Source of the DNA: an uncultured Opitutia bacterium
Lineage (GTDB): Bacteria > Verrucomicrobiota > Verrucomicrobiia > Opitutales > Opitutaceae
Direction of reading: 5' to 3'
DNA length: 64,000 nucleotides
Assembly (NCBI GenBank): GCA_903859715.1
Contig: CAIONS010000056.1
Location: 1 to 64,000, forward strand
Positions 20,044 through 58,957 of this stretch are shown here, piece after piece. The notes below the pieces were generated by a model. That model made no database searches. It had not been told where the DNA came from and saw only the letters and a program-made list of their open reading frames with translations. How positions within the stretch are numbered: the stretch's first letter is position 1; every line of letters begins with the position of its first letter. The translations under genes and the position numbers were made by a program.

Positions 20044-20190
20044 TAACCACGAAAAACACGAAAGACACGAAAATCGATCTCCTGAATTTATCGCGGAAGC
20101 GCGGAGGAGCGGAAACGCGGAATCTGAATCCTGATCAGAAGGGATTGTTTCCCCAACTCCGCTTCTCCGCGCTTCCGCGATAAACTGATT
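20044..20190. repeat. Composite palindromic repeat, best-preserved copy
   Basis: AACCACGAAAAACACGAAAG leads into a near-perfect long stem. The left arm TATCGCGGAAGCGCGGAG (about 20088-20114) pairs with the right arm CTCCGCGCTTCCGCGATA (about 20157-20184). The arms themselves consist of repeated GCGGA words. Only about 43 bases of loop separate them. Confidence 0.85.
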
Positions 20191-25670: not shown

Positions 25671-25848
25671 TTTTAACCACGGATTTCACGGATGGCACGG
25701 ATCAGAAGTGCCGATCCTCGATCGGGATTTTTACAGGAGATAACGAAGGGAACGAAGGACGAGGTGGATCAGGGCCACTTTGTTACCTCGGTTACCTTCT
25801 GTTCAAATCAAGATTCTGAATATCTGAATCCGTGTAATCCGTGGTAAA
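25671..25848. repeat. Nested palindrome: ACGGATT arms outside, GTAACG arms inside
   Basis: Outer arms are TTTTAACCACGGATTTCACG (25671 on) and GTGTAATCCGTGGTAAA (ending 25848). Inside them lies a second inverted pair, ACAGGAGATAACGAAGGGAA (about 25731) and TTACCTCGGTTACCTTCTGT (about 25783). Both words recur at 30957-31164 in the opposite nesting order. Confidence 0.85.
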
Positions 25849-25851
25849 GAA

Positions 25852-26382
25852 TCAGGTGAGGGTGGCGGCGAATTCGGCGAAACTGGGATAGATCGGAATG
25901 CGGTGGGCGGCGATTTCGGGCAGGGTGGAGGGATCGATTTTTCCCGTGCTGACGGCGGCGACGTTGATCCGGGCAGCGAGGGCCGAGCCGATGTCGGCGG
26001 CGGAATCGCCGACCATCCAGCATTGCGCGGGGTCGAGGCGGTGCTGCTCGATTTTCTCCAGGATATAGCGCGGGGAGGGCTTGCGGTAAACCACGGGCTG
26101 GCCCGGCGCCTCGGGTGCGATGCAGACGCCGGCAAACAGCGGCGAGCCGAGGCCGAGCAGTTCCTCCATGCGGGCGTTGACGCGGAGGGTATCGTCGAGC
26201 GTGTGATAGCCGCGACCGATGCCGGACTGGTTGGTGAAGAGGAAGAGCTTGTAGCCCAGCGTGCGGGCCCGGCTCAGGCCCTCGATGGCGCCGGGGATGA
26301 GTTCCACGCCGGCCGGATCGGCGAGGTAGACTTTGTCGAGGATGAGCGTGCCGTCGCGATCGAGGAACAGCGCCTTGCTCAT
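25852..26382 (-). CDS. gmhB: Heptose bisphosphate phosphatase-like HAD protein
   Basis: A 176-residue HAD phosphatase expected to remove the 1- or 7-phosphate of heptose bisphosphate in ADP-heptose synthesis. Motif I is LFLDRDGTLI, motif II FLFTNQSGIGRG, motif III YRKPSPR and motif IV MVGDSAADI. GmhB and HisB-N normally carry a Cys/His zinc loop before motif III. Here it reads VCIAPEAPGQPVVYRKP and lacks those ligands. It overlaps the hldE stop (ATGA), which supports the heptose role. Confidence 0.85.
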   Translation of the reverse strand: MSKALFLDRDGTLILDKVYLADPAGVELIPGAIEGLSRARTLGYKLFLFTNQSGIGRGYHTLDDTLRVNARMEELLGLGSPLFAGVCIAPEAPGQPVVYRKPSPRYILEKIEQHRLDPAQCWMVGDSAADIGSALAARINVAAVSTGKIDPSTLPEIAAHRIPIYPSFAEFAATLT

Positions 26383-27368
26383 GACTCGTGCGCCACGTAC
26401 GCCGCGAGTTCTTTGGGCGTGACGGTGGCGGTGCCGATCTTGCCCACGACCACGCCGGCGGCGGCGTTGGAGAAGTGCGCAGCCTTCTCGAGATTTGCGC
26501 CCGCGGTGAGCGCGAGCACGAGGGCGGCTAGCGAGGTGTCACCGGCACCGGAGACGTCGAAAACCTCGCGTGCCATGGTTGGGATGGTTTTTTTAACCAG
26601 GCCGTTCTCGCTGAGCAGCATGCCGTCTTTGCCTCGGGTAATTACCAAGTACTTTGTCCGGTAAAGCTTATGCAGTTTGGCGCAGACTTCGGCCGCGGGA
26701 AATGGGGTGTGGGGCAGCAGTTTGATGCCCGCCAGTTGGAGTGATTCCCGCTCGTTCGGAGTGATGAGATCTAGGGCTTTGAACGTGAGCAGGCGACGAG
26801 GTTTCGGGTCGAGCGCGATGAACTTGCCGGCCGCGTGAGCGAGTTTGCTGACGCGGGTGATGAGTTCGTTGTCGAGGATGCCTTTGGCATAGTCGGAGAG
26901 AATCACGGCATCGCAGGCTTCTATTTCAGCGGCCAGCAACGACTCTGCATCCTTTGCGGTCACATGATATTCTGCGGGCGGTGACTCGCGGTCGATGCGG
27001 CAAAGCTGCTGTCCACGCACCATGACGCGCGTCTTCATGATCGTCTGGCTGGATCCAGGCGTACTCAAAGTGACAATGCCCTTGTCCTCGAGCTTCTCGC
27101 GCAAGGTCTTCCCGGTTTGATCGGAACCAAAATAGCCGGCGACGACGCACCGAGCGCCGAGGGCAGCGATATTCAGCGCCACGTTGCCCGCGCCACCAGC
27201 CGTGCTGAATTCCTCCGACACGTCGATGACGGGAACGGGCGCCTCGGGGGAGATGCGGGTGGCATCGCCTTTGATGTACCGGTCGAGCATCACGTCGCCG
27301 ACGACGAGGATGCGCAACTTAGCGATTTTCCGGAGCAGACCGGGCAGGCCTTTTATCTGAGTTCCCAT
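26379..27368 (-). CDS. hldE: D-glycero-beta-D-manno-heptose-7-phosphate kinase
   Basis: A 329-residue PfkB-family kinase corresponding to the kinase half of HldE (RfaE1). It starts ILVVGDVMLDRYIKGDATRI, and ISPEAPVPV and GGAGNVALNIAALGA follow. The catalytic Asp is in VSGAGDTSLAALVLA. The nucleotidyltransferase half is missing, so a separate RfaE2 must be encoded elsewhere. It lies between the M24 peptidase gene (16-base overlap) and gmhB (4-base overlap), giving two consecutive steps of LPS heptose synthesis. Confidence 0.93.
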   Translation of the reverse strand: MGTQIKGLPGLLRKIAKLRILVVGDVMLDRYIKGDATRISPEAPVPVIDVSEEFSTAGGAGNVALNIAALGARCVVAGYFGSDQTGKTLREKLEDKGIVTLSTPGSSQTIMKTRVMVRGQQLCRIDRESPPAEYHVTAKDAESLLAAEIEACDAVILSDYAKGILDNELITRVSKLAHAAGKFIALDPKPRRLLTFKALDLITPNERESLQLAGIKLLPHTPFPAAEVCAKLHKLYRTKYLVITRGKDGMLLSENGLVKKTIPTMAREVFDVSGAGDTSLAALVLALTAGANLEKAAHFSNAAAGVVVGKIGTATVTPKELAAYVAHES

Positions 27369-28492
27369 TCGTAGTGGTAGTTGGAAAGCATCATGGGAGC
27401 GCGATCGGTGACTTGCACGACATCCTCGATGCGGCAGCCGCCGAGGCCCGGGTAATACAGCCCGGGCTCGACTGTGACCACGGCGCCCTTTTTCAGCAGC
27501 ATGGAAACGGTGGGACTCAGGCGCGGCATTTCGTGGACGGCGAGGCCGAGGCCGTGGCCGGTGCCGTGGAAATAACCGACGGAGCCGTTCTTGGTATGCT
27601 TTGTCTTATAGCCGGCTTCGACGAAGGTGGCGGCGACTTTTTGGTGCACCTTCTGGCCGTCCACGCCGGTGCGGATCATCTTGATCGCGGCCAGCTGGGC
27701 GGCGCGGACCGTGGTGACGAGCTTCCGCTGGGCATCGCTAGCGCGGCCGCGGAGGAAGGTACGGGTCATATCACCATAGTAACCGGTCTCGGTGACGCTC
27801 GGGAAAATATCGAGAATGATGAGTTCGTTCGGACGAAGGGGGCCGGTGCCGCGGTTGTGCGGATCGCAGGCCTGATCGCCGCCGGCGACGATGGTGTTGA
27901 GCGACGATCCGCCCTCGTGGAGGATGGCGCTCTCGATGGCGAACTTTAGGACCTCGGAGGTGAGCGGCTGGCCGGCGTAGCGGAGCGAGCGGCCCTTCGG
28001 GCGCGACGCGCGCAGGATAGCCTCGGCGGCGGCGAACCCGACGGAGCTGAGGCGGTTGCCCTCGCGGATCGCGGCGGCCTCGGCGTCGGACTTGATCTCG
28101 CGCTCGGGAAACATCGGGCCGCCGGCCGGCTCGACCTTCACGCCGAGGGCGCGGAGCTTCAGGAAGAGCGCGACGGGAAAATCATCCGGCACGCGAAAGC
28201 CGGGCACGCGGTAGGCGCGGGCGAGCTCGGCGATGACCTCGGCTGCGCCGACCTTGCGGCGGGGCCAGCGGGCGGCGGCCGTGGCGTGCCAGTCGGCGAG
28301 GGGCAGGACGGCGTCGAAGGTGCGGGCTTTCTTGACGCGGCCCAGCTCAAGCGCGTTCTGGACGGTGAAGCGTTTTTTCCCGACGCCGAAGGAGATGAAC
28401 GGGTCCGGCACACCGACGCGGCTGAAATAGAGCTGGTCGGAGCTGGTGGCGGTGTCGGCGTAGAGGAGGGGAGGAAGCGGGGAGCGGGCCAC
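27353..28492 (-). CDS. M24 family Xaa-Pro aminopeptidase-like protein
   Basis: A 379-residue pita-bread peptidase with a GTG start. The five dimetal ligands are visible: Asp in LILDIFPSV, Asp in YYGDMTRTF, His in FHGTGHGLGLAVHEM, Glu in VTVEPGLYYPG and Glu in RIEDVV. It probably removes N-terminal residues before proline from peptides. It has no signal peptide. Its end overlaps hldE, so it heads a three-gene operon, although no functional link with heptose synthesis is obvious. Confidence 0.92.
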   Translation of the reverse strand: MARSPLPPLLYADTATSSDQLYFSRVGVPDPFISFGVGKKRFTVQNALELGRVKKARTFDAVLPLADWHATAAARWPRRKVGAAEVIAELARAYRVPGFRVPDDFPVALFLKLRALGVKVEPAGGPMFPEREIKSDAEAAAIREGNRLSSVGFAAAEAILRASRPKGRSLRYAGQPLTSEVLKFAIESAILHEGGSSLNTIVAGGDQACDPHNRGTGPLRPNELIILDIFPSVTETGYYGDMTRTFLRGRASDAQRKLVTTVRAAQLAAIKMIRTGVDGQKVHQKVAATFVEAGYKTKHTKNGSVGYFHGTGHGLGLAVHEMPRLSPTVSMLLKKGAVVTVEPGLYYPGLGGCRIEDVVQVTDRAPMMLSNYHYEWELR

Positions 28493-28543
28493 GGCGGAGA
28501 GAGAAGTTGAATTGAGGGGCGGCCGTGATTAGCCAACGAGTCT

Positions 28544-29374
28544 GTGAAAAACGCAAATCCGGTTTCGTGGCGCAGCGCCTTGCTGGTGATGACTCTCCTG
28601 GCGGTCGCAGCCTGCGGACGGTCGGCGGCGGAGAAAGCTCCCAGTGTGCCGCCGCTGCCGGTGGCTGCTTCCGGGGTCATCCCGTACACCTATGAGGTGA
28701 TTGCCACGTGGCCGCACGACCCGAAGGCGTTTACCGAGGGATTGCTGGTGCGCAACGGGGAGTTGTTTGAAAGCACCGGCCTGTACGGTCAGTCGAGCTT
28801 GCGCGAGGTGGAGATCTCCACGGGACGGATCGTGAAACAGGTGTCGGTCCCCGCGCAGTTCTTTGGGGAGGGTCTCACCATCATCGGCGACCATGCGTAC
28901 CAGCTGACCTGGCGGAGCGGAAAGGGCTTTGTCTACGACGCAGACACGTTTCGACTGGAACGGGAGTTCACTTTCGAGAGCGAGGGCTGGGGTCTTACGA
29001 CCGACGGGCACTGGCTGATCCAGAGCGACGGGACCAACCGGATTCGGTTTCTCGACCCCGCGACGTTCCGGGTCGTCCGCACCCTCGACGTCGTTGCGGA
29101 GGGCAAGCCGGTCAGCCGGCTGAACGAGCTGGAATGGATCAACGGCGAGATCTTTGCGAACGTTTGGCTGACGGACAAAGTGATGCGGATCGATCCCGCC
29201 ACCGGGCAGGTACGCGGGGTGATTGATTTCTCGGGTCTGCTGGCGCCGCAGGACCACGGTCCGGAGACGGACGTGCTCAACGGGATCGCCTACGATGCGG
29301 CGAACGACCGGCTCTTCATCACCGGGAAACGCTGGCCGAAGATTTTCGAGGTGCGGCTGAAAGTCCGGCCCTGA
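28544..29374 (+). CDS. Glutaminyl-peptide cyclotransferase, lipoprotein
   Basis: A 276-residue plant/bacterial-type glutamine cyclotransferase that converts N-terminal Gln to pyroglutamate. A GTG start precedes a lipoprotein signal with lipobox LAVAAC at about residues 19-24, so it should be anchored in a membrane. The five-bladed propeller motifs FTEGLLVRNGELFESTGLYG, GEGLTII, LNELEWINGEIFANVW and DVLNGIAYD are typical. It is divergent from the M24 gene. Confidence 0.9.
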   Translation: MKNANPVSWRSALLVMTLLAVAACGRSAAEKAPSVPPLPVAASGVIPYTYEVIATWPHDPKAFTEGLLVRNGELFESTGLYGQSSLREVEISTGRIVKQVSVPAQFFGEGLTIIGDHAYQLTWRSGKGFVYDADTFRLEREFTFESEGWGLTTDGHWLIQSDGTNRIRFLDPATFRVVRTLDVVAEGKPVSRLNELEWINGEIFANVWLTDKVMRIDPATGQVRGVIDFSGLLAPQDHGPETDVLNGIAYDAANDRLFITGKRWPKIFEVRLKVRP

Positions 29375-29387
29375 GCGAGCGCGGAAG

Positions 29388-29822
29388 TTACTCCTTCGGA
29401 ATCTCGTTGTTCGTGCGCAGCATGAGGACGGGCGTCTTGGTCTTCACCCAGACATCGGCGTCCTTGAAATGCTTGGCCGGAACGTTCTCGAACGCCTCGC
29501 CGACGGTCTTGACCGGGAGCAGGCGGCCCTTCTTCGAGGCGTTGAAATCATAAACGCCGCGCAGGACGCGGTCAGGCGTGGTGACCACGCTCTCATTCTC
29601 GGGGATCTGCAGCACCCAGCCGACGAAATCGCCCTTGGGCAGCCGGCCCTCGGGGTCGGAGAGGACGATGACCCACTGTTTTTTCACCGCCGGCGGCTTT
29701 TCCTCCCCGGTGTCGGGCTGCACGGCGATGTTCATCTCCTCGATCACGCGGCGGAGCACGGTGGGGTCGATTTGGTTCTTCTTTAAAATCTCTGCGACTT
29801 TGCTGACGTCGATTTTCGGCAT
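29388..29822 (-). CDS. Conserved hypothetical protein
   Basis: A 144-residue soluble protein, MPKIDVSKVAEILKKNQIDP at the start, with a Pro-rich linker (EEKPPAVKKQ) and a second domain WVIVLSDPEGRLPKGDFVGW. No catalytic pattern or signal peptide is seen. Codon use matches its neighbours, so it is very probably real. I do not recognise the family. Confidence 0.7.
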   Translation of the reverse strand: MPKIDVSKVAEILKKNQIDPTVLRRVIEEMNIAVQPDTGEEKPPAVKKQWVIVLSDPEGRLPKGDFVGWVLQIPENESVVTTPDRVLRGVYDFNASKKGRLLPVKTVGEAFENVPAKHFKDADVWVKTKTPVLMLRTNNEIPKE

Positions 29823-29838
29823 GGTGTTTTCCGTTTAG

Positions 29839-29870
29839 GGGACCACGAATGGACACGAATGAACGGGAAT
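29839..29870. repeat. Single ACCACGAAT-type repeat unit
   Basis: GACCACGAATGGACACGAAT followed by GAACGGGAAT, a solitary arm of the family that also occurs at 20044, 18340 and 36697. No complementary arm is seen nearby. Confidence 0.6.
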
Positions 29871-29883
29871 GTAAAGGCGGCGC

Positions 29884-30402
29884 ATGGCTGAGGAATTTTT
29901 TGACGTGGTGAACGAGCGCGACGAGCCCGTGGGCCGGGCGTTGCGGGCGGAGGTCCACGCGCGCGGGCTGCGGCACCGGGCCGTGCTGATCTTCGTCTTC
30001 AATACGGCCGGCCGAATTTTTCTGCAGAAGCGGTCGATGATGAAGGATGTTTCGCCGGGGCTATGGACGGTGTCCTGCTCCGGGCATGTGGATGCGGGCG
30101 AGGACTACGATGTCGCGGCGAGGCGTGAACTGGGCGAGGAACTCGGGCTGAAACTGGAAGTCGCGCCGGTGCGTTGGTTCCGGGTCGAAGCCTGTGCCGA
30201 GACGGATTGGGAGTTCTCGTGGATCTATCGGATTACGGCCGACGGGCCGTTTATCCTGCATCCGCAGGAAATTGAAACCGGCCAGTGGATCGATCGGACC
30301 GAACTCGAGCGCTGGCTGGTGCTACGTCCGCAGGAATTTTGCCCGGGATTCCGCTGGATCTGGTCGATGGCGGAGGAGAAATCGCCTGAGCGTGCAGGGT
30401 AG
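29884..30402 (+). CDS. NUDIX hydrolase, IPP-isomerase-like
   Basis: A 172-residue NUDIX protein. The Nudix box is complete: GHVDAGEDYDVAARRELGEE followed by LGL, matching Gx5Ex7REUxEExGU. The beginning EEFFDVVNERDEPVG and FLQKRSMMKDVSPGLW resemble the YfcD/isopentenyl diphosphate isomerase-like subgroup. The substrate is not determinable here. It starts close after a repeat unit. Confidence 0.88.
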   Translation: MAEEFFDVVNERDEPVGRALRAEVHARGLRHRAVLIFVFNTAGRIFLQKRSMMKDVSPGLWTVSCSGHVDAGEDYDVAARRELGEELGLKLEVAPVRWFRVEACAETDWEFSWIYRITADGPFILHPQEIETGQWIDRTELERWLVLRPQEFCPGFRWIWSMAEEKSPERAG

Positions 30403-30419
30403 AGAGTCGTTTTGCCTTG

Positions 30420-30526
30420 CCCGAGGGTAGGGCGAGTCGTCCCCGACGAGCCGCAGCGCACGACCGGCTCATCCGGAGGATTCGCCCTACCGCACAAACC
30501 GGCGGGGTCGGCGACCCCGCCTTAAA
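30420..30526. repeat. Two GC-rich palindromes
   Basis: GTAGGGCGAGTCGTCCCCGA pairs with a region ending GGATTCGCCCTAC. It is followed by a second palindrome GGCGGGGTCGGCGACCCCGCC. The second also occurs at 50002-50036. Confidence 0.7.
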
Positions 30527-30548
30527 GAACCCAGGAAGAAGATCCTTC

Positions 30549-30899
30549 TTACCTTTGCTCGGTCGCGGGGCGGTCCATGGCCGGGTTGTGCGAGCCGGGC
30601 TCGTAAAACGACGGCCCGTTGCCGGTCACGCGCCGTCCCGTGATTTTCCCGGGGCCGGTGTTTTCGCTGAGGCGCTTGATCTCCTCGAATTGCTTGGTGG
30701 AGATCAGCCGGCGCGGGACGCGTTTCTCGGCCTCATAGATGAGGCGCTCGCGATCATCGTTGTCCGGTGTGTAAGGGTCCCAAGAGGAATGATGCCCCTG
30801 GTGCTTGGTCCATTCGATGTTGCCACCGTGCACGACTGCGCTGACCTGGAATTTCTTCCCGTCCGCGTCCTTGTTCCACCAGCCGAACTCGATGCTCAT
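30549..30899 (-). CDS. Hypothetical protein
   Basis: A 116-residue soluble protein from the ATG at 30899 (MSIEFGWWNKDADGKKFQVS), with HGGNIEWTKHQGHHSSW and EAEKRVPRRLISTKQFEEIK. The pattern suggests a small compact domain. No family is recognised. The longer frame from 30935 is possible, but the extra residues look non-native. Confidence 0.65.
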   Translation of the reverse strand: MSIEFGWWNKDADGKKFQVSAVVHGGNIEWTKHQGHHSSWDPYTPDNDDRERLIYEAEKRVPRRLISTKQFEEIKRLSENTGPGKITGRRVTGNGPSFYEPGSHNPAMDRPATEQR

Positions 30900-30956
30900 G
30901 GCGACAGTAAGACGGATGGCGGCGGCAACCCGCAAGGCGGGACTGTGGGGATTGAT

Positions 30957-31164
30957 TTTTCAGGAGGTAACGGAGGGAACGGAGAAGAGAAGCAGACCTC
31001 GGAATTTTTAACCACGGATTGAACGGATATACCCGGATGGGAAAACACAACCAAGGCATCGATCCTATGTTTGAGGTCTTATCCAGATCGAATCCGTGAA
31101 ATCCGTGGTCAAATATTCTGAATGCGTGATCATCTCTCCATTCCCTCTGTTACCTCCTGTAAAA
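30957..31164. repeat. Nested palindrome: GTAACG arms outside, ACGGATT arms inside
   Basis: Outer arms AGGAGGTAACGGAGGGAACG (30962 on) and TTCCCTCTGTTACCTCCTGT (31141-31160) enclose the inner arms TTTAACCACGGATTGAACGG (31008 on) and GAATCCGTGAAATCCGTGGT (31090 on). This is the reverse nesting of the element at 25671-25848. Confidence 0.85.
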
Positions 31165-32080: not shown

Positions 32081-32264
32081 TCCCGTCATCCCTTCGACAG
32101 GCTCAGGGCAGGCTCTGAGCGAAGCCGAAGGATCTCTGCTATCCTTCCCGGTCATTCTGCATTTGATTGGGATACTCAAGCGTCGTCACAGAAGTGGCTA
32201 TGGTCAGCCGCAGGCTTGAGGAATATAGTCACAGAGATCCTTCGGCTTCGCTCAGGATGACGGG
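32081..32264. repeat. Palindromic repeat (TCCCTTCGACAGGCTCAGG type)
   Basis: Left arm CCCGTCATCCCTTCGACAGG continuing to GAAGCCGAAGGATCTCTG. The right arm CAGAGATCCTTCGGCTTCGC continues to CAGGATGACGGG. These words belong to a repeat type known from many bacterial genomes. Confidence 0.8.
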
Positions 32265-37377: not shown

Positions 37378-37406
37378 GTTGGATTCTCGGAGACAATCCC
37401 AGTCAA

Positions 37407-37529
37407 TTTAACCACGGATTACACGGATTCGATCTGGATAAATCCCAATTTATTGTAGGACTGACTTGGACTGCGGCTTGAGGATCGGAATTGCTCATCC
37501 GTGGTATCCGTGAAATCCGTGGTTAAAAT
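37407..37529. repeat. ACGGATT palindromic repeat
   Basis: Left arm TTTAACCACGGATTACACGG and on to ATTCGATCTGGATA. The right arm CCGTGAAATCCGTGGTTAAA closes it. The left arm with its CGATCTGGATAA extension also appears, inverted, at 31080-31113. Confidence 0.85.
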
Positions 37530-37567
37530 TCCGGGGATTGATGGAGTCGCAAAGGACTTATTCAAAA

Positions 37568-38110
37568 ATGCACCGCACCCAAGTTCTCACTCTGCTGCGC
37601 GCCCACGCTGGGCGGACGCTTGACTCGCATGAGGCGGCGATGACGGCGGAGACGATCCGGTTTGTGGAAGCGTACCCGGACTGCCTGCTGCGCACGCAAC
37701 TCAGCGGACATCTGACGGGCTCGGCGTGGGTGGTCGATGTGAGTCGGACGCGGACGCTCCTGACGCACCATCGCAAGCTCGACAAGTGGCTGCAACTCGG
37801 CGGTCACGCCGATGGTGATCCTGACTTGCTGGCCGTGGCGCTCCGTGAAGCCAGCGAGGAAAGCGGGCTGACGCGGTTGCGGGCGGTGACACCGGAGATC
37901 TTTGATCTCGACCGGCACTGGATTCCCGAGCGTAAGACCGAGCCGGCCCACTGGCATTACGATCTGCGGTTCATGATCGAAGCAGATCCGAACGAGCCAT
38001 TGACCGTGACCCACGAGTCGAAAGATCTCGCCTGGGTGGAAGTCGCGCGGGTGACTACGCTCAATCCCGAGGAATCGATGGCGAGGATGGTAAGGAAGAT
38101 GAAGCTCTAA
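37568..38110 (+). CDS. NUDIX hydrolase
   Basis: A 180-residue NUDIX protein (ATG at 37568 behind an AAAGGA ribosome site; in-frame starts also exist at 37541 and 37538). The box reads GHADGDPDLLAVALREASEE and then SGL, so the first Glu of the canonical motif is Pro while the REx2EE core is intact. This is a recognised subgroup variant. The substrate is unknown. It lies between two repeat elements. Confidence 0.82.
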   Translation: MHRTQVLTLLRAHAGRTLDSHEAAMTAETIRFVEAYPDCLLRTQLSGHLTGSAWVVDVSRTRTLLTHHRKLDKWLQLGGHADGDPDLLAVALREASEESGLTRLRAVTPEIFDLDRHWIPERKTEPAHWHYDLRFMIEADPNEPLTVTHESKDLAWVEVARVTTLNPEESMARMVRKMKL

Positions 38111-38337
38111 GGTAGAAGTTCGAAATCCGAAAGATAGCCTGCCGGGACTCCTTGGGTGTGTCTATAAAACCGATTGTCATTCTGAACGAAGTGAAGAATC
38201 CAGTTGGATGTCATCGAAGTCCGCGACGAAATCTCACTGGATTCTTCGCTGCGCTCAGAATGACAAACTACGGAATCGCAGGTTTGAAAACACATCCTAA
38301 GAGCGGATCCTAATTTTCGAATTTCGGATTTCTACCT
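38111..38337. repeat. Multiply nested palindrome
   Basis: Outer arms GGTAGAAGTTCGAAATCCGA and TTCGAATTTCGGATTTCTAC are complementary. Inside them GGGTGTGT and ACACATCC form a second, partial pair. Innermost are ATTGTCATTCTGAACGAAGT and the complementary stretch ending CGCTCAGAATGACAA. Three distinct words are therefore stacked within one 227-base element. Confidence 0.85.
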
Positions 38338-38344
38338 TCGAATT

Positions 38345-40801
38345 TCATCTCCACAGCCCGACCACATCGTCCTTCCGCACCCAGCCGGTCTGGCCGTTGT
38401 CGAAGGAGAGGCGCACCCAGTTGAGGAACGTCTTGTCCACGATCGCCACGCTGCCGGCGGAGAGGGTCGTGCTTTTCTGGGTGGTGTCGGCCTCGGTCGG
38501 GATGGAGCGCAGCACACTGCCGCGCCAGAGGATGACGGCGCTGCTGTCGGCAGTCTGGCCATAGGCCTGTAGGCCGAGGAGTGAGGCCGTGCCCAGCAGC
38601 AGGCTCACTGCCAGTAAAATCACCGCGCTCCATGTCCGGAAAGCGGAGGAGCGGACGTAGGAATTGTAGAGCAGCAGACCGAACGCGAAGGCCAGGGCCG
38701 CCGCCGCGGCGAGCAGCCACCGTTGCCACGAGCCGGGCGAGGCCAGCTGCGCGAGCGATTGCAGCGGACCCGGCCGCGGAAACGCCGCGAGCGGGGCGGG
38801 CAGGAAACCGGATTTTTCGCCGGCGAGGGCGAACTGCCAGCGGATGGACGTGTTGGCCGGGTCCTGGACCAGGGCGGCGGTGGCATGGGCGAGCGCCAGA
38901 TCCCAGCGATCCTGCTGGGCCAGGGCGAGCGAGAGGTTGTGACGGGCGATGGGATTAGCCGGATCCTGGGCGACCTCCGCAGTCCAGATTTTCTCCGCGG
39001 CGGCGAAATCTCCGCGGCGGTAGGCGCTGCCGCCGTCCTCGGCGCGAAGGGACGTGGCGATCATCGCGGCGGCCACGAGCACAAAGAAAGGCGCAAGATT
39101 GCGCGGCAGGAGTGCAGCCAGCGGCGAGAAGCCCGGCACGCGGCGGGCGGCGAGGGCGGCCTCGGCGCGTGTGACCCAGTCGGACGGCAGGGCGGTGTCG
39201 GCGCGGTAGAGCGCGCGATCGGATTCCACCCAAAGCTTGCTCCATCCAGCGTCACCGAACGCCGCGGGTGGCGGCGCGGCGTGAAGGATTTCCCAGAGAA
39301 CGGCCGAGTCATGCTGCCAGGCGAGGAGCAGGGCAGGACGATCCGCTTTGCCGGCGGTGCGGAGCCGGGCGAGCGTGGCGGCGAGCCGCGCGTGGGCTTC
39401 GCGGCGAAGGCGTTTGGGATCGGTTTGCCGGGCGCGCCGCACGGCCAGCCAGCCCCAGAAAATCACGAGCAGCGCGAATGGCGCCGCGAGCAGCAGCAGG
39501 AGCTGATCGCTGGCCAGCGGCACGGGGGTGTGGTCTGCACCGGGAAGGGCATCGCGCGGAATGCCCTCGGGCGGGGCGGTGGGCGGGGTGTCGGTCTTGG
39601 GCGCTTGATTGGCGGCCGGCGCAGCCGAAGGCGTTTCAGGCGCACCGACTTGGAAGCGCGGAGCGGAGCCGGCCGGCGTGGCTGCGGCGGTGATCGTGAC
39701 GGTCGTGCCGGAGGTACTGAGCGTCTTGTACTCGCCGTCCTTGGGATCGAAATAAATGAAGGTGACCGGCTTGAGCGGATAGCTGCCGGCGCGGGTGGGG
39801 ACGAGCACGACGTCCTCGGTGAGCGTGACATCGAAGAGTTTTCCATCCGCGGGGACGCGCTTGGCCTGGGGCTGCACGACCTGAAAGTCCTTCGATACCT
39901 CGCGCTGCGGGAGCCCGGCGATGTCAGGCCAGTTGCCCGTGCCGCTGAGTTCGAGCGTCCAGGTGATCGGTTCGCCGATGGCGGCGCTGGTGGGGACGAC
40001 CTTGGACGTCAGTTTGAACTGCCCGACCGCGCCGGTGAAGCCGGCCGGCGGCGCGGGCAACGGGTTGACGAGGAGATCGACGCGTTTGGAGTTCACCGTG
40101 AGCTGCTCGACGCGCTGCTGCTGGAACAGGCCGAAGCCGATGCTGCCGGTGGCGATGTTCACCAACTGCGTGGTGGGACTGAGCGTGAGCGGACCGGACG
40201 TCTTGGCGTAGGCCCGCGCCTTGTAGATGATGTTGAGCCGGGCTTCGCCGTTGAGGCTGGTTTCATACGGCTCCGGTTTCGACCAGTCCTCGACGATGAG
40301 CGGTGAGGCGTTCCAATCGATGGCACTGGCGAGCTGGTTGAAACTGCGCCGGGCGGCATCGAGCACGTAGGTCAGCGGAAACACTTCGCCGGCCCAGACG
40401 GACACGGAACCGGGAGTGAGGCGGGCATTGACGGTGGCATCAGAGATGACCCGGGCGGCGCCGCCCGTGTAGGATGCGACCGGCTTGGGGCCCTTGCTGG
40501 TTTGCACCGTGAAGGCCGGAATCTGCAGGGTAGCGCCAGCCCGGCGGGACCGCGCGCTGTATGTGAGGATGGTCGAACGGGAGAAAGAGCCGTTGGTGAT
40601 GGAGGTCTGGGTGGAATTCCCCGTCAGCGACAGGGAGGTGTCGGGCATGATCGGCAGCTGGGGATCCCCATCCGGGGCGCAGTCCTCGAACACGAGCTGA
40701 ACCTCGGCGGGATCGTCGGGCGAGCCCTCCCAGTGCACGGATTGCGCGCGAGCGGTCAGGGCGAAGACGGGCAGGAAAATGAGAGCGAGGAAGCGGCGCA
40801 T
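38345..40801 (-). CDS. batD: BatD/BatE fusion protein
   Basis: An 818-residue membrane protein with a signal peptide (MRRFLALIFLPVFALTARAQ). The N-terminal half is the BatD repeat domain (VHWEGSPDDPAEVQLVFEDC; VGQFKLTSKVVPTSAAIGEP; GTGNWPDIAGLP). A membrane span lies at about 440-460 (LLLLLAAPFALLVIFWGWLA). After it come cytoplasmic helices, another span, two TPR-like repeats (YRRGDFAAAEKIWTAEV; RHNLSLALAQQDRWDLALAH), two further spans and a C-terminal SH3-like domain (WVRLSFDNGQTGWVRKDDVV). TPR plus spans correspond to BatE, so two genes that are separate in other bacteria appear joined. It is the last gene of the bat operon. Confidence 0.85.
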   Translation of the reverse strand: MRRFLALIFLPVFALTARAQSVHWEGSPDDPAEVQLVFEDCAPDGDPQLPIMPDTSLSLTGNSTQTSITNGSFSRSTILTYSARSRRAGATLQIPAFTVQTSKGPKPVASYTGGAARVISDATVNARLTPGSVSVWAGEVFPLTYVLDAARRSFNQLASAIDWNASPLIVEDWSKPEPYETSLNGEARLNIIYKARAYAKTSGPLTLSPTTQLVNIATGSIGFGLFQQQRVEQLTVNSKRVDLLVNPLPAPPAGFTGAVGQFKLTSKVVPTSAAIGEPITWTLELSGTGNWPDIAGLPQREVSKDFQVVQPQAKRVPADGKLFDVTLTEDVVLVPTRAGSYPLKPVTFIYFDPKDGEYKTLSTSGTTVTITAAATPAGSAPRFQVGAPETPSAAPAANQAPKTDTPPTAPPEGIPRDALPGADHTPVPLASDQLLLLLAAPFALLVIFWGWLAVRRARQTDPKRLRREAHARLAATLARLRTAGKADRPALLLAWQHDSAVLWEILHAAPPPAAFGDAGWSKLWVESDRALYRADTALPSDWVTRAEAALAARRVPGFSPLAALLPRNLAPFFVLVAAAMIATSLRAEDGGSAYRRGDFAAAEKIWTAEVAQDPANPIARHNLSLALAQQDRWDLALAHATAALVQDPANTSIRWQFALAGEKSGFLPAPLAAFPRPGPLQSLAQLASPGSWQRWLLAAAAALAFAFGLLLYNSYVRSSAFRTWSAVILLAVSLLLGTASLLGLQAYGQTADSSAVILWRGSVLRSIPTEADTTQKSTTLSAGSVAIVDKTFLNWVRLSFDNGQTGWVRKDDVVGLWR

Positions 40802-58867: not shown

Positions 58868-58871
58868 GATT

Positions 58872-58952
58872 GATCGTGGAAACGCGGAGGGGCGGAAACA
58901 CGGAAATCAGCCGATTGGGTCAGCGCTTCCGCTCCTCCGCGTTTCCGCGATC
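58872..58952. repeat. GCGGAAACGCGG palindromic repeat
   Basis: Left arm GATCGTGGAAACGCGGAGGG and right arm CCTCCGCGTTTCCGCGATC, with about 30 bases between them. It lies after the operon and before the convergent ABC gene and could double as a terminator. Confidence 0.85.
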
Positions 58953-58957
58953 AGCCT

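Follow-up and report, generated by a model that had tools for sequence, protein, structure and literature searches.

The stretch of DNA analysed here (the window) covers 64,000 nucleotides (nt), positions 1 to 64,000 of the forward strand, of contig CAIONS010000056.1 from an uncultured Opitutia bacterium of the Opitutaceae (GCA_903859715.1). Between its protein-coding frames lie two composite hairpins, in which the same two families of inverted arms, A and B, are nested in opposite order, as a preliminary description of this DNA had already noted at these positions. Element 1 (25671-25851) has the form A(B)A, that is, an A arm, a B arm, an inverted B arm and an inverted A arm, and element 2 (30956-31164) has the form B(A)B, with a B arm, an A arm, an inverted A arm and an inverted B arm. 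The arm patterns are ACCACGGATT..ACGGAT for A and GGTAACGGAGG.AACGGAG for B, and the arms are composed of 9-nt units (ACCACGGAT TTCACGGAT GGCACGGAT; GGTAACGGA GGGAACGGA). The outer left A arm of element 1 (25671-25702, plus strand) reads TTTTAACCACGGATTTCACGGATGGCACGGAT, three 9-nt units, and pattern matches place the inner left B arm at 25728-25757 (plus), the diverged, inverted right B arm at 25778-25807 (minus) and the inverted right A arm at 25826-25851 (minus). The last of these adjoins the stop codon (25852-25854) of a minus-strand gene for a HAD-IIIA hydrolase. In element 2, pattern matches give the outer B arms at 30956-30985 (plus) and 31135-31164 (minus, inverted) and the inner A arms at 31004-31028 (plus) and 31090-31114 (minus, inverted). 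The A pattern has eight matches in the window with up to three mismatches, against a mean of 0.41 and a maximum of 2 in 100 dinucleotide shuffles. The B pattern has seven, a number that no shuffle reached (mean 1.85, maximum 6), and taken alone in the window it is moderately above chance. Since the window count by itself is moderate, the case for B rests on the pairing of its arms and on its copies in the whole genome.

Genome-wide copies of both arms were collected, as had been proposed, and both orders, A(B) and B(A), recur. The A arm is found at 84 sites (up to two mismatches) versus 1 for its reversed control pattern, and the B arm at 71 sites (up to three mismatches) versus 25. The genome holds 73 arm clusters, in which paired arms face one another, so that each unit is a hairpin, and 9 A arms and 18 B arms have no called partner. 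When the clusters are read with up to five mismatches per arm, B lies outside A at six places with both B arms and at seven more with one (at one of the latter, C9:153988, the right A arm is missing too; C, G and L with a number denote contigs, related genomes and loci), and A lies outside B at three places with both A arms and at three more with one. Strict pairing with up to four mismatches gives 39 A hairpins and 26 B hairpins, with four cases of A in B and two of B in A. Further arm families of similar build, with units of 8 to 10 nt, occur at the same places (ACCACGAAGG.CACGAAG, ACCGCGAAG.., ACCACGAATGGACACGAAT and others), and the first two of them jointly have 423 sites versus 53 for the control. 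By our reading, A and B belong to at least seven hairpin families in which units of about 9 nt, repeated in tandem, form the arms.

Nesting is also not confined to A and B. A is nested within C-, D- and E-type arms as well, and the depth reaches three, for example around C69:76766-76995 and C39:18810-19057. An outer inverted repeat with a score of at least 14 encloses 16 of the 39 A hairpins versus 4 of 154 displaced control flanks, and 8 of the 26 B hairpins versus 4 of 100. These displaced flanks replaced an initial control in which the left flank came from one element and the right flank from a different one (99% quantile 28.5 for A, exceeded by 2/39 A and 2/26 B hairpins), because shared outer families spoilt it. 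Over one whole contig of 369 kilobases (kb), 39 inverted repeats score at least 17 and none does in the mirror control.

The preliminary description went further and held that each family inserts within the other as a unit of two arms plus loop. Part of this stands: such units come and go between species, both orders are found several times, and the window itself holds a loop-occupied and loop-empty pair at 38097-38350, though for another pair of families. Not every composite can be counted as a separate nesting, because the B(A)B composites form about three groups, at least one of which spread as a unit. Element 2, for instance, matches C13:17425-17641 and C68:102418-102629 at 80% over its whole length. 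Long local matches (scores 57 to 107) place 12 of the 13 B(A) composites in three groups, with weaker matches (50 to 56) between groups, and 2 of the 15 pairs among the six A(B) composites reach a score of 50. Since the groups differ, the comparison suggests that nesting occurred more than once in each order.

Occupied and empty sites were compared among relatives, and the presence or absence of the elements differs by species. The closest relative compared, G005, is about 85% identical. For element 1, eleven relatives were searched by BLAST and ten of them inspected in alignment (G003 left out); for element 2, eight relatives were compared (G003, G008 and G011 left out). Element 1 is absent from G005, where homology restarts at 25852 in the empty site, and element 2 is present in G005 and absent from seven of the eight relatives. 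By eye, the site of element 1 holds another hairpin in G002, G004, G006 and G009, half an arm in G007, and no hairpin in G005, G001, G008, G010 and G011. At 37394-37540 the window has a third A hairpin, whose left flank CGGAGACAATCCCAG looks by eye like the linker that joins B to A in B(A)B composites; in G005 a B hairpin occupies this place. At 38097-38350, an outer hairpin of 7-nt units (arms 38097-38132 and 38315-38350) is found in both genomes, and an inverted-repeat scan places within its loop a TTGTCATTCTGA-type hairpin (arms 38174-38204 and 38236-38266) that G005 does not have, the comparison being between these two genomes. The C(A(B)) element at C4:15070-15360 has the content of its outer hairpin inverted in G005 (L302 3909-4174), the inner block aligning with a score of 101.5 when inverted versus 25.5 on the same strand. 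At C6:37112, both outer arms have changed in the same direction between species while the inner hairpin is constant, as judged by eye.

As to a gene that could serve the hairpins, the preliminary description saw no transposase in the window. This holds for Y1_Tnp and GxxExxY, neither of which matches there, other transposase families not having been searched. Elsewhere in the genome, however, GxxExxY genes lie in hairpin loops, and they are the candidate partner of the hairpins. The N-termini of GxxExxY proteins often look as though translated from such repeats. The genome has five of these genes, all above the TIGR04256 and PF13366 cut-offs (three of them were also found in a further search), and each is flanked by inverted arms of this hairpin kind. 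Their arm scores are 26, 19, 24, 23 and 26.5, four of which exceed the 99% level of 19.5 in 497 random spans on C56 (95% level 16, maximum 23). One gene (C56:328476-329090) has A arms, with the near right arm worn and a second A hairpin following; the gene on C61 has ACCACGAAG arms, and those at C47:25242, on C39 and at C9:158342 have three other arm types. All five arm types are also found as gene-less hairpins in this genome: on C56 there are four of the C39 type, three of the C9 type and one of the C47 type, and by inverted-repeat scan two gene-less hairpins of the C39 type lie in the window, at 20087-20184 and 58871-58953. As a separate observation, a B hairpin at C4:18740-19340 is enclosed by arms of the C39 type, and its own loop contains, by eye, two neighbouring hairpins that differ from each other.

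The same context is found far beyond this genome. We took 80 GxxExxY loci, the best of at least 581 confirmed by tblastn, and 79 remained after one (L128) was dropped for too short a flank; by record title they come from Verrucomicrobiota, Planctomycetota, Bacteroidota, Cyanobacteria, Desulfobacterota, Chloroflexota, Acidobacteriota, Proteobacteria and others. Flanking arms score above the 95% control level at 62 of the 79 and above the 99% level at 52, and 7 of 790 controls exceed the latter; this is no census, because the loci were chosen by similarity. One clear period is seen in 41 of the 158 flanks (29 of 8 nt, 8 of 9 nt and 4 other) and in 3 of 160 displaced controls. Within 6 kb on each side, gene-less hairpins bearing the arm motif of the gene were found at 9 of the 80 loci, with 15 pairs versus 2 in the opposite order. 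This gives weak support to the link in other phyla, because the regular expression used was narrow (it flanked 37 of the 80 genes).

Two sites suggest how gene-bearing and gene-less hairpins are related. At a site next to a gyrB/parE-type gene, a GxxExxY hairpin is found in this genome, G004 and G006. In G005, G001 and G002 the arms are present without the gene, and their loops retain the 30 or so bases that follow the arm, the start of the gene among them (scores 20.5, 23.5 and 16, each reached by none of 1000 shuffles; the remainder of the gene scores 8.5 to 9.5). G009 has a plain hairpin there, whereas in G003 and G008 both the gene and these arms are missing. For this CACGCAGAG arm type, internal deletion would be the simplest reading, and because three relatives keep arms and gene start, gene-less hairpins of this type can probably be deletion derivatives of gene-bearing ones. 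We also observed, at the same site in G004:C70 and G006:C277 (L322, L327), that one hairpin element is present in tandem copies, some with the gene and some without it. In the nusB/ftsY spacer, this genome and G005 carry a GxxExxY gene hairpin, G002 and G004 an A-like hairpin whose loop is occupied by a B hairpin, G003, G009 and G008 three other hairpins, and G001 a 7-nt array. The ftsY frame itself contains, at C9:159011-159075 (L107), some 60 bases that have matches at dozens of sites in this genome, G005 and G008, as though a repeat had entered the coding region. The C9 gene compared with G005 has a nonsynonymous divergence (dN) of 0.012 and a synonymous divergence (dS) of 0.388, indicating strong purifying selection, and the C47 gene compared with G004 and G006 (dN 0.118 and 0.106, dS about 0.91) is likewise under purifying selection.

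GxxExxY proteins belong to PF13366 and have the PD-(D/E)XK fold. The residues D77, E87 and K89 are invariant in all 67 aligned relatives (the 80 proteins less twelve that failed a frame check and L144), and the copy with A arms at C56:328521 reads DPK where others have ExK. The structure is predicted with confidence, at a predicted local distance difference test (pLDDT) score of 93.8. Sequence search gave no convincing solved relative, one chain being matched at E 0.12. The best Foldseek match is SSO0001 (4ic1; E 0.009), which we take to be a Cas4 protein. By VIA-align the model matches 4ic1 at Z 9.0 and 3ijm, a restriction-endonuclease-like protein, at Z 8.3, followed at Z 5.4 to 7.4 by restriction-type enzymes, a Cas4 protein and archaeal Holliday junction resolvases (several of the last at 5.4 to 6.4), where values below 8 may reflect a shared arrangement alone. 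A junction-cutting enzyme might suit a cruciform. We also considered a gene of a defence system and rejected it: of three proteins scanned, one matched two Cas4 models weakly (E 0.00075 and 0.025), which a shared nuclease fold could explain.

A parallel case is seen in PF05635 (23S_rRNA_IVP) genes. In a sample of 30 loci from 111 matches in this genome and its relatives (L248-L277), 17 genes lie in hairpins with a score above 18, versus 3 of 300 controls. Of 60 flanks, 16 have a period of 7 nt, 4 of 14 nt and 5 of 8 nt, and any clear period is found in 4 of 60 controls. One such gene (C56:226952-227415) is inside a hairpin of 7-nt units, and another, at C27:57622, scores 14.5.

We lean, with modest confidence, towards the explanation that A and B are mobile hairpin families whose full elements carry GxxExxY and whose preferred targets are the loops of old elements. 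An element would consist of a loop between two inverted arms, each a tandem series of units about 8 or 9 nt long, in intergenic position, and a full element would hold in that loop a single gene, GxxExxY, for a small protein of the PD-(D/E)XK fold. The short gene-less elements, far commoner, could derive from full ones through internal deletion. New elements would favour the loops of old ones as insertion sites and so give nests in either order, and the outer arms of old elements would decay, so that the hairpin at an occupied site is replaced over time; nests would then be young stages and worn outer arms old ones. GxxExxY may recognise the arms, whether extruded as a cruciform or single-stranded, and cut the hairpin DNA or its loop to start the move, and host repair may then copy another element into the cut loop. 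Loop targeting would in that case be a preference of the machinery, beyond what selection alone would leave. Comparison of sequences shows the hairpin architecture, both nesting orders, the turnover, the loop position of GxxExxY and, in the case of one arm type, the gene start in gene-less loops; that GxxExxY moves or maintains the hairpins and that loops are preferred targets is what we infer from them.

Several points weigh against this explanation. No transposition event was observed, and the case is known from sequence and predicted structure. At most sites the difference could be either a gain or a loss, and no target-site duplication is readable in the empty-site alignments, because the closest relative is about 85% identical. 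The A and B families are far more numerous than the five GxxExxY genes, none of which lies in B arms, and one of the five (on C61, score 19) falls just below the 99% control level. Across phyla, 27 of the 79 loci are not above that level and 17 are not above the 95% level. Nesting and turnover are likewise seen in hairpins with 7-nt arms and of TTGTCATTCTGA type, which means that GxxExxY elements are not alone in nesting, and the copies of B(A)B are in part duplications of whole units. The deletion derivative is seen for one arm type, and not for A or B. Moreover, selection looks weak in the closest gene pair, between G004 and G006 (dN 0.023, dS 0.050).

In other explanations the hairpins are not mobile elements with a gene of their own. 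They could be retained by selection as intergenic RNA structures (for 3'-end protection, processing or termination), their sequences being exchanged by recombination or gene conversion, with the GxxExxY genes as passengers which put up with such places or make use of them. Some hairpin is indeed kept in the nusB/ftsY spacer of most species despite change of sequence, the outer arms at C6:37112 differ in the same direction between species, and both window hairpins follow the stop codon of a listed reading frame at a distance of no more than 9 bases. At the variable position, moreover, the left A arm agrees with the right one in 24 of 39 hairpins versus 16.2 expected (permutation p 0.0026). Passengers, however, would not be expected to keep to arm types, one gene family having 8- or 9-nt arms and another 7-nt arms; the gene start in gene-less loops ties the hairpins to the gene, and several relatives do without any hairpin at the site of element 1. 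We regard selection for RNA structure as a rather unlikely explanation. Hairpin DNA could also be copied without any dedicated enzyme, through replication errors (template switching, or slippage where forks stall) or through ectopic recombination of one arm with another; forks stalled at hairpins would attract further events and build nests. The mutual nesting of hairpins of very different make at 38097-38350 fits such a process, and the inverted inner block at C4:15070 in G005 is what arm recombination would leave, but the process fails to explain the conservation of GxxExxY and its position in hairpin loops across many phyla, and we consider it unlikely.

That each composite order arose once and that all copies are worn duplicates is very unlikely. 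The end-to-end matches of element 2 to its C13 and C68 copies speak for it, and so does the grouping of nearly all B(A) composites, some of the weaker matches even joining groups; yet the groups differ in linker and loop, few A(B) pairs resemble each other, A is also nested in arms of the C, D and E types, and another nest has a loop-empty allele. The preliminary description had further pointed to a transposase associated with repetitive extragenic palindromes (REPs), and the genome does have two Y1_Tnp matches, a shorter one and one in a RAYT-like gene with a frame of 335 amino acids (C47:20390-20719, L009). Nevertheless, no exact core of A, B or C arms lies within 1.5 kb of this longer gene, whose flanks have an 11-base inverted repeat alone. 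That the hairpins are REPs mobilised by this RAYT gene is thus hardly credible, and we rejected it as the mobiliser because it is unlinked to the arms.

Other palindromic features of the window should be mentioned. At 32115-32255 there is a hairpin with long arms (CTGAGCGAAGCCGAAGGATCTCTG) beside GTCATTCTG-like sequence, which G005 does not have there. A further palindromic repeat of GGTAGGGCGAG.. type (30414-30524) has several genome copies with up to 92% identity over about 110 bases, and its spacer holds a different repeat sequence in G005. An Rfam scan of the window at the gathering threshold gave three tRNAs and nothing else, so that the hairpins match no known structured RNA family there.

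The hairpin context of the GxxExxY/PDDEXK_3 family (TIGR04256, PF13366) appears to be new here. No paper linking GxxExxY or PDDEXK_3 to repeats was found in a search that left preprints and most subscription journals outside, and no published role of GxxExxY was found in the literature searched. Among the matches listed, no paper describes these elements by its title or the start of its abstract, and a search with the literal arm sequences listed none that is by title on bacterial repeats. In the part seen of one paper, GxxExxY is mentioned in a passage on reverse transcriptases and cas genes (PMC8934634). If our explanation is right, this widespread gene gains a concrete setting as the gene of a hairpin element, the origin of a good part of the intergenic hairpins in such genomes and of the differences between close species is explained, and the 23S rRNA intervening sequences are given a possible wider family. 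Nesting in both orders would be a record of which element inserted into which.

Four known systems are nearest in kind, namely the REPIN/RAYT systems, the miniature inverted-repeat transposable elements (MITEs), the 23S rRNA intervening sequences and the mitochondrial hairpin elements. REPIN/RAYT systems consist of short palindromic non-coding intergenic repeats in many copies and a gene for a Y1 tyrosine transposase flanked by the same palindromes, and REP palindromes bear a GTAG/CGTC tag at the foot. We saw by eye no such tag on the A and B arms examined. The present hairpins are likewise short, palindromic, non-coding, intergenic and numerous, and a candidate nuclease gene lies between the same palindromes (compare PMC3733652 and PMC3686654). 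Unlike that system, the gene here is of the PD-(D/E)XK fold and not a Y1 tyrosine transposase, the arms are built of tandem units about 9 nt long, the elements nest in each other's loops, and the arms do not flank the RAYT-like gene of this genome. MITEs are non-autonomous, have terminal inverted repeats and can be internal-deletion derivatives of a gene-bearing element. Terminal inverted repeats and multiple gene-less copies are observed here as well (compare PMC10969869), but the gene here is GxxExxY and no transposase of known kind, no target-site duplication could be read, and most of the element consists of its arms.

The 23S rRNA intervening sequences are described, in the part seen, as inverted-repeat hairpins with a small S23p open reading frame in an rRNA helix and as selfish elements (PMC4990558), and so resemble the present case in that a hairpin with a small reading frame is lodged in the helix of another structure. 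They differ in lying in rRNA helices with S23p, whereas the window elements lie between protein frames and related loops hold GxxExxY; the PF05635 hairpins here mostly have arms of 7-nt units, whereas A and B are of the 8- or 9-nt kind of GxxExxY. Repetitive hairpin-forming and double-hairpin elements of mitochondria are intergenic and mobile-looking, with a mechanism given as unknown (PMC2800124), and are alike in this respect. They are organellar, however, and what was seen of that paper mentions tandem insertion and no gene and does not contain the word 'nested'. There is a fair chance that the hairpin elements form a class of their own. It is possible, and we put it forward tentatively, that this is a widespread class of mobile element not described before, consisting of self-nesting hairpins with periodic arms and a single gene, either for a PD-(D/E)XK nuclease (8- or 9-nt arms) or, in a parallel line, for the four-helix-bundle 23S-IVP protein (7-nt arms), which would spread by insertion into existing loops and may renew the intergenic hairpins of many phyla from the inside out.

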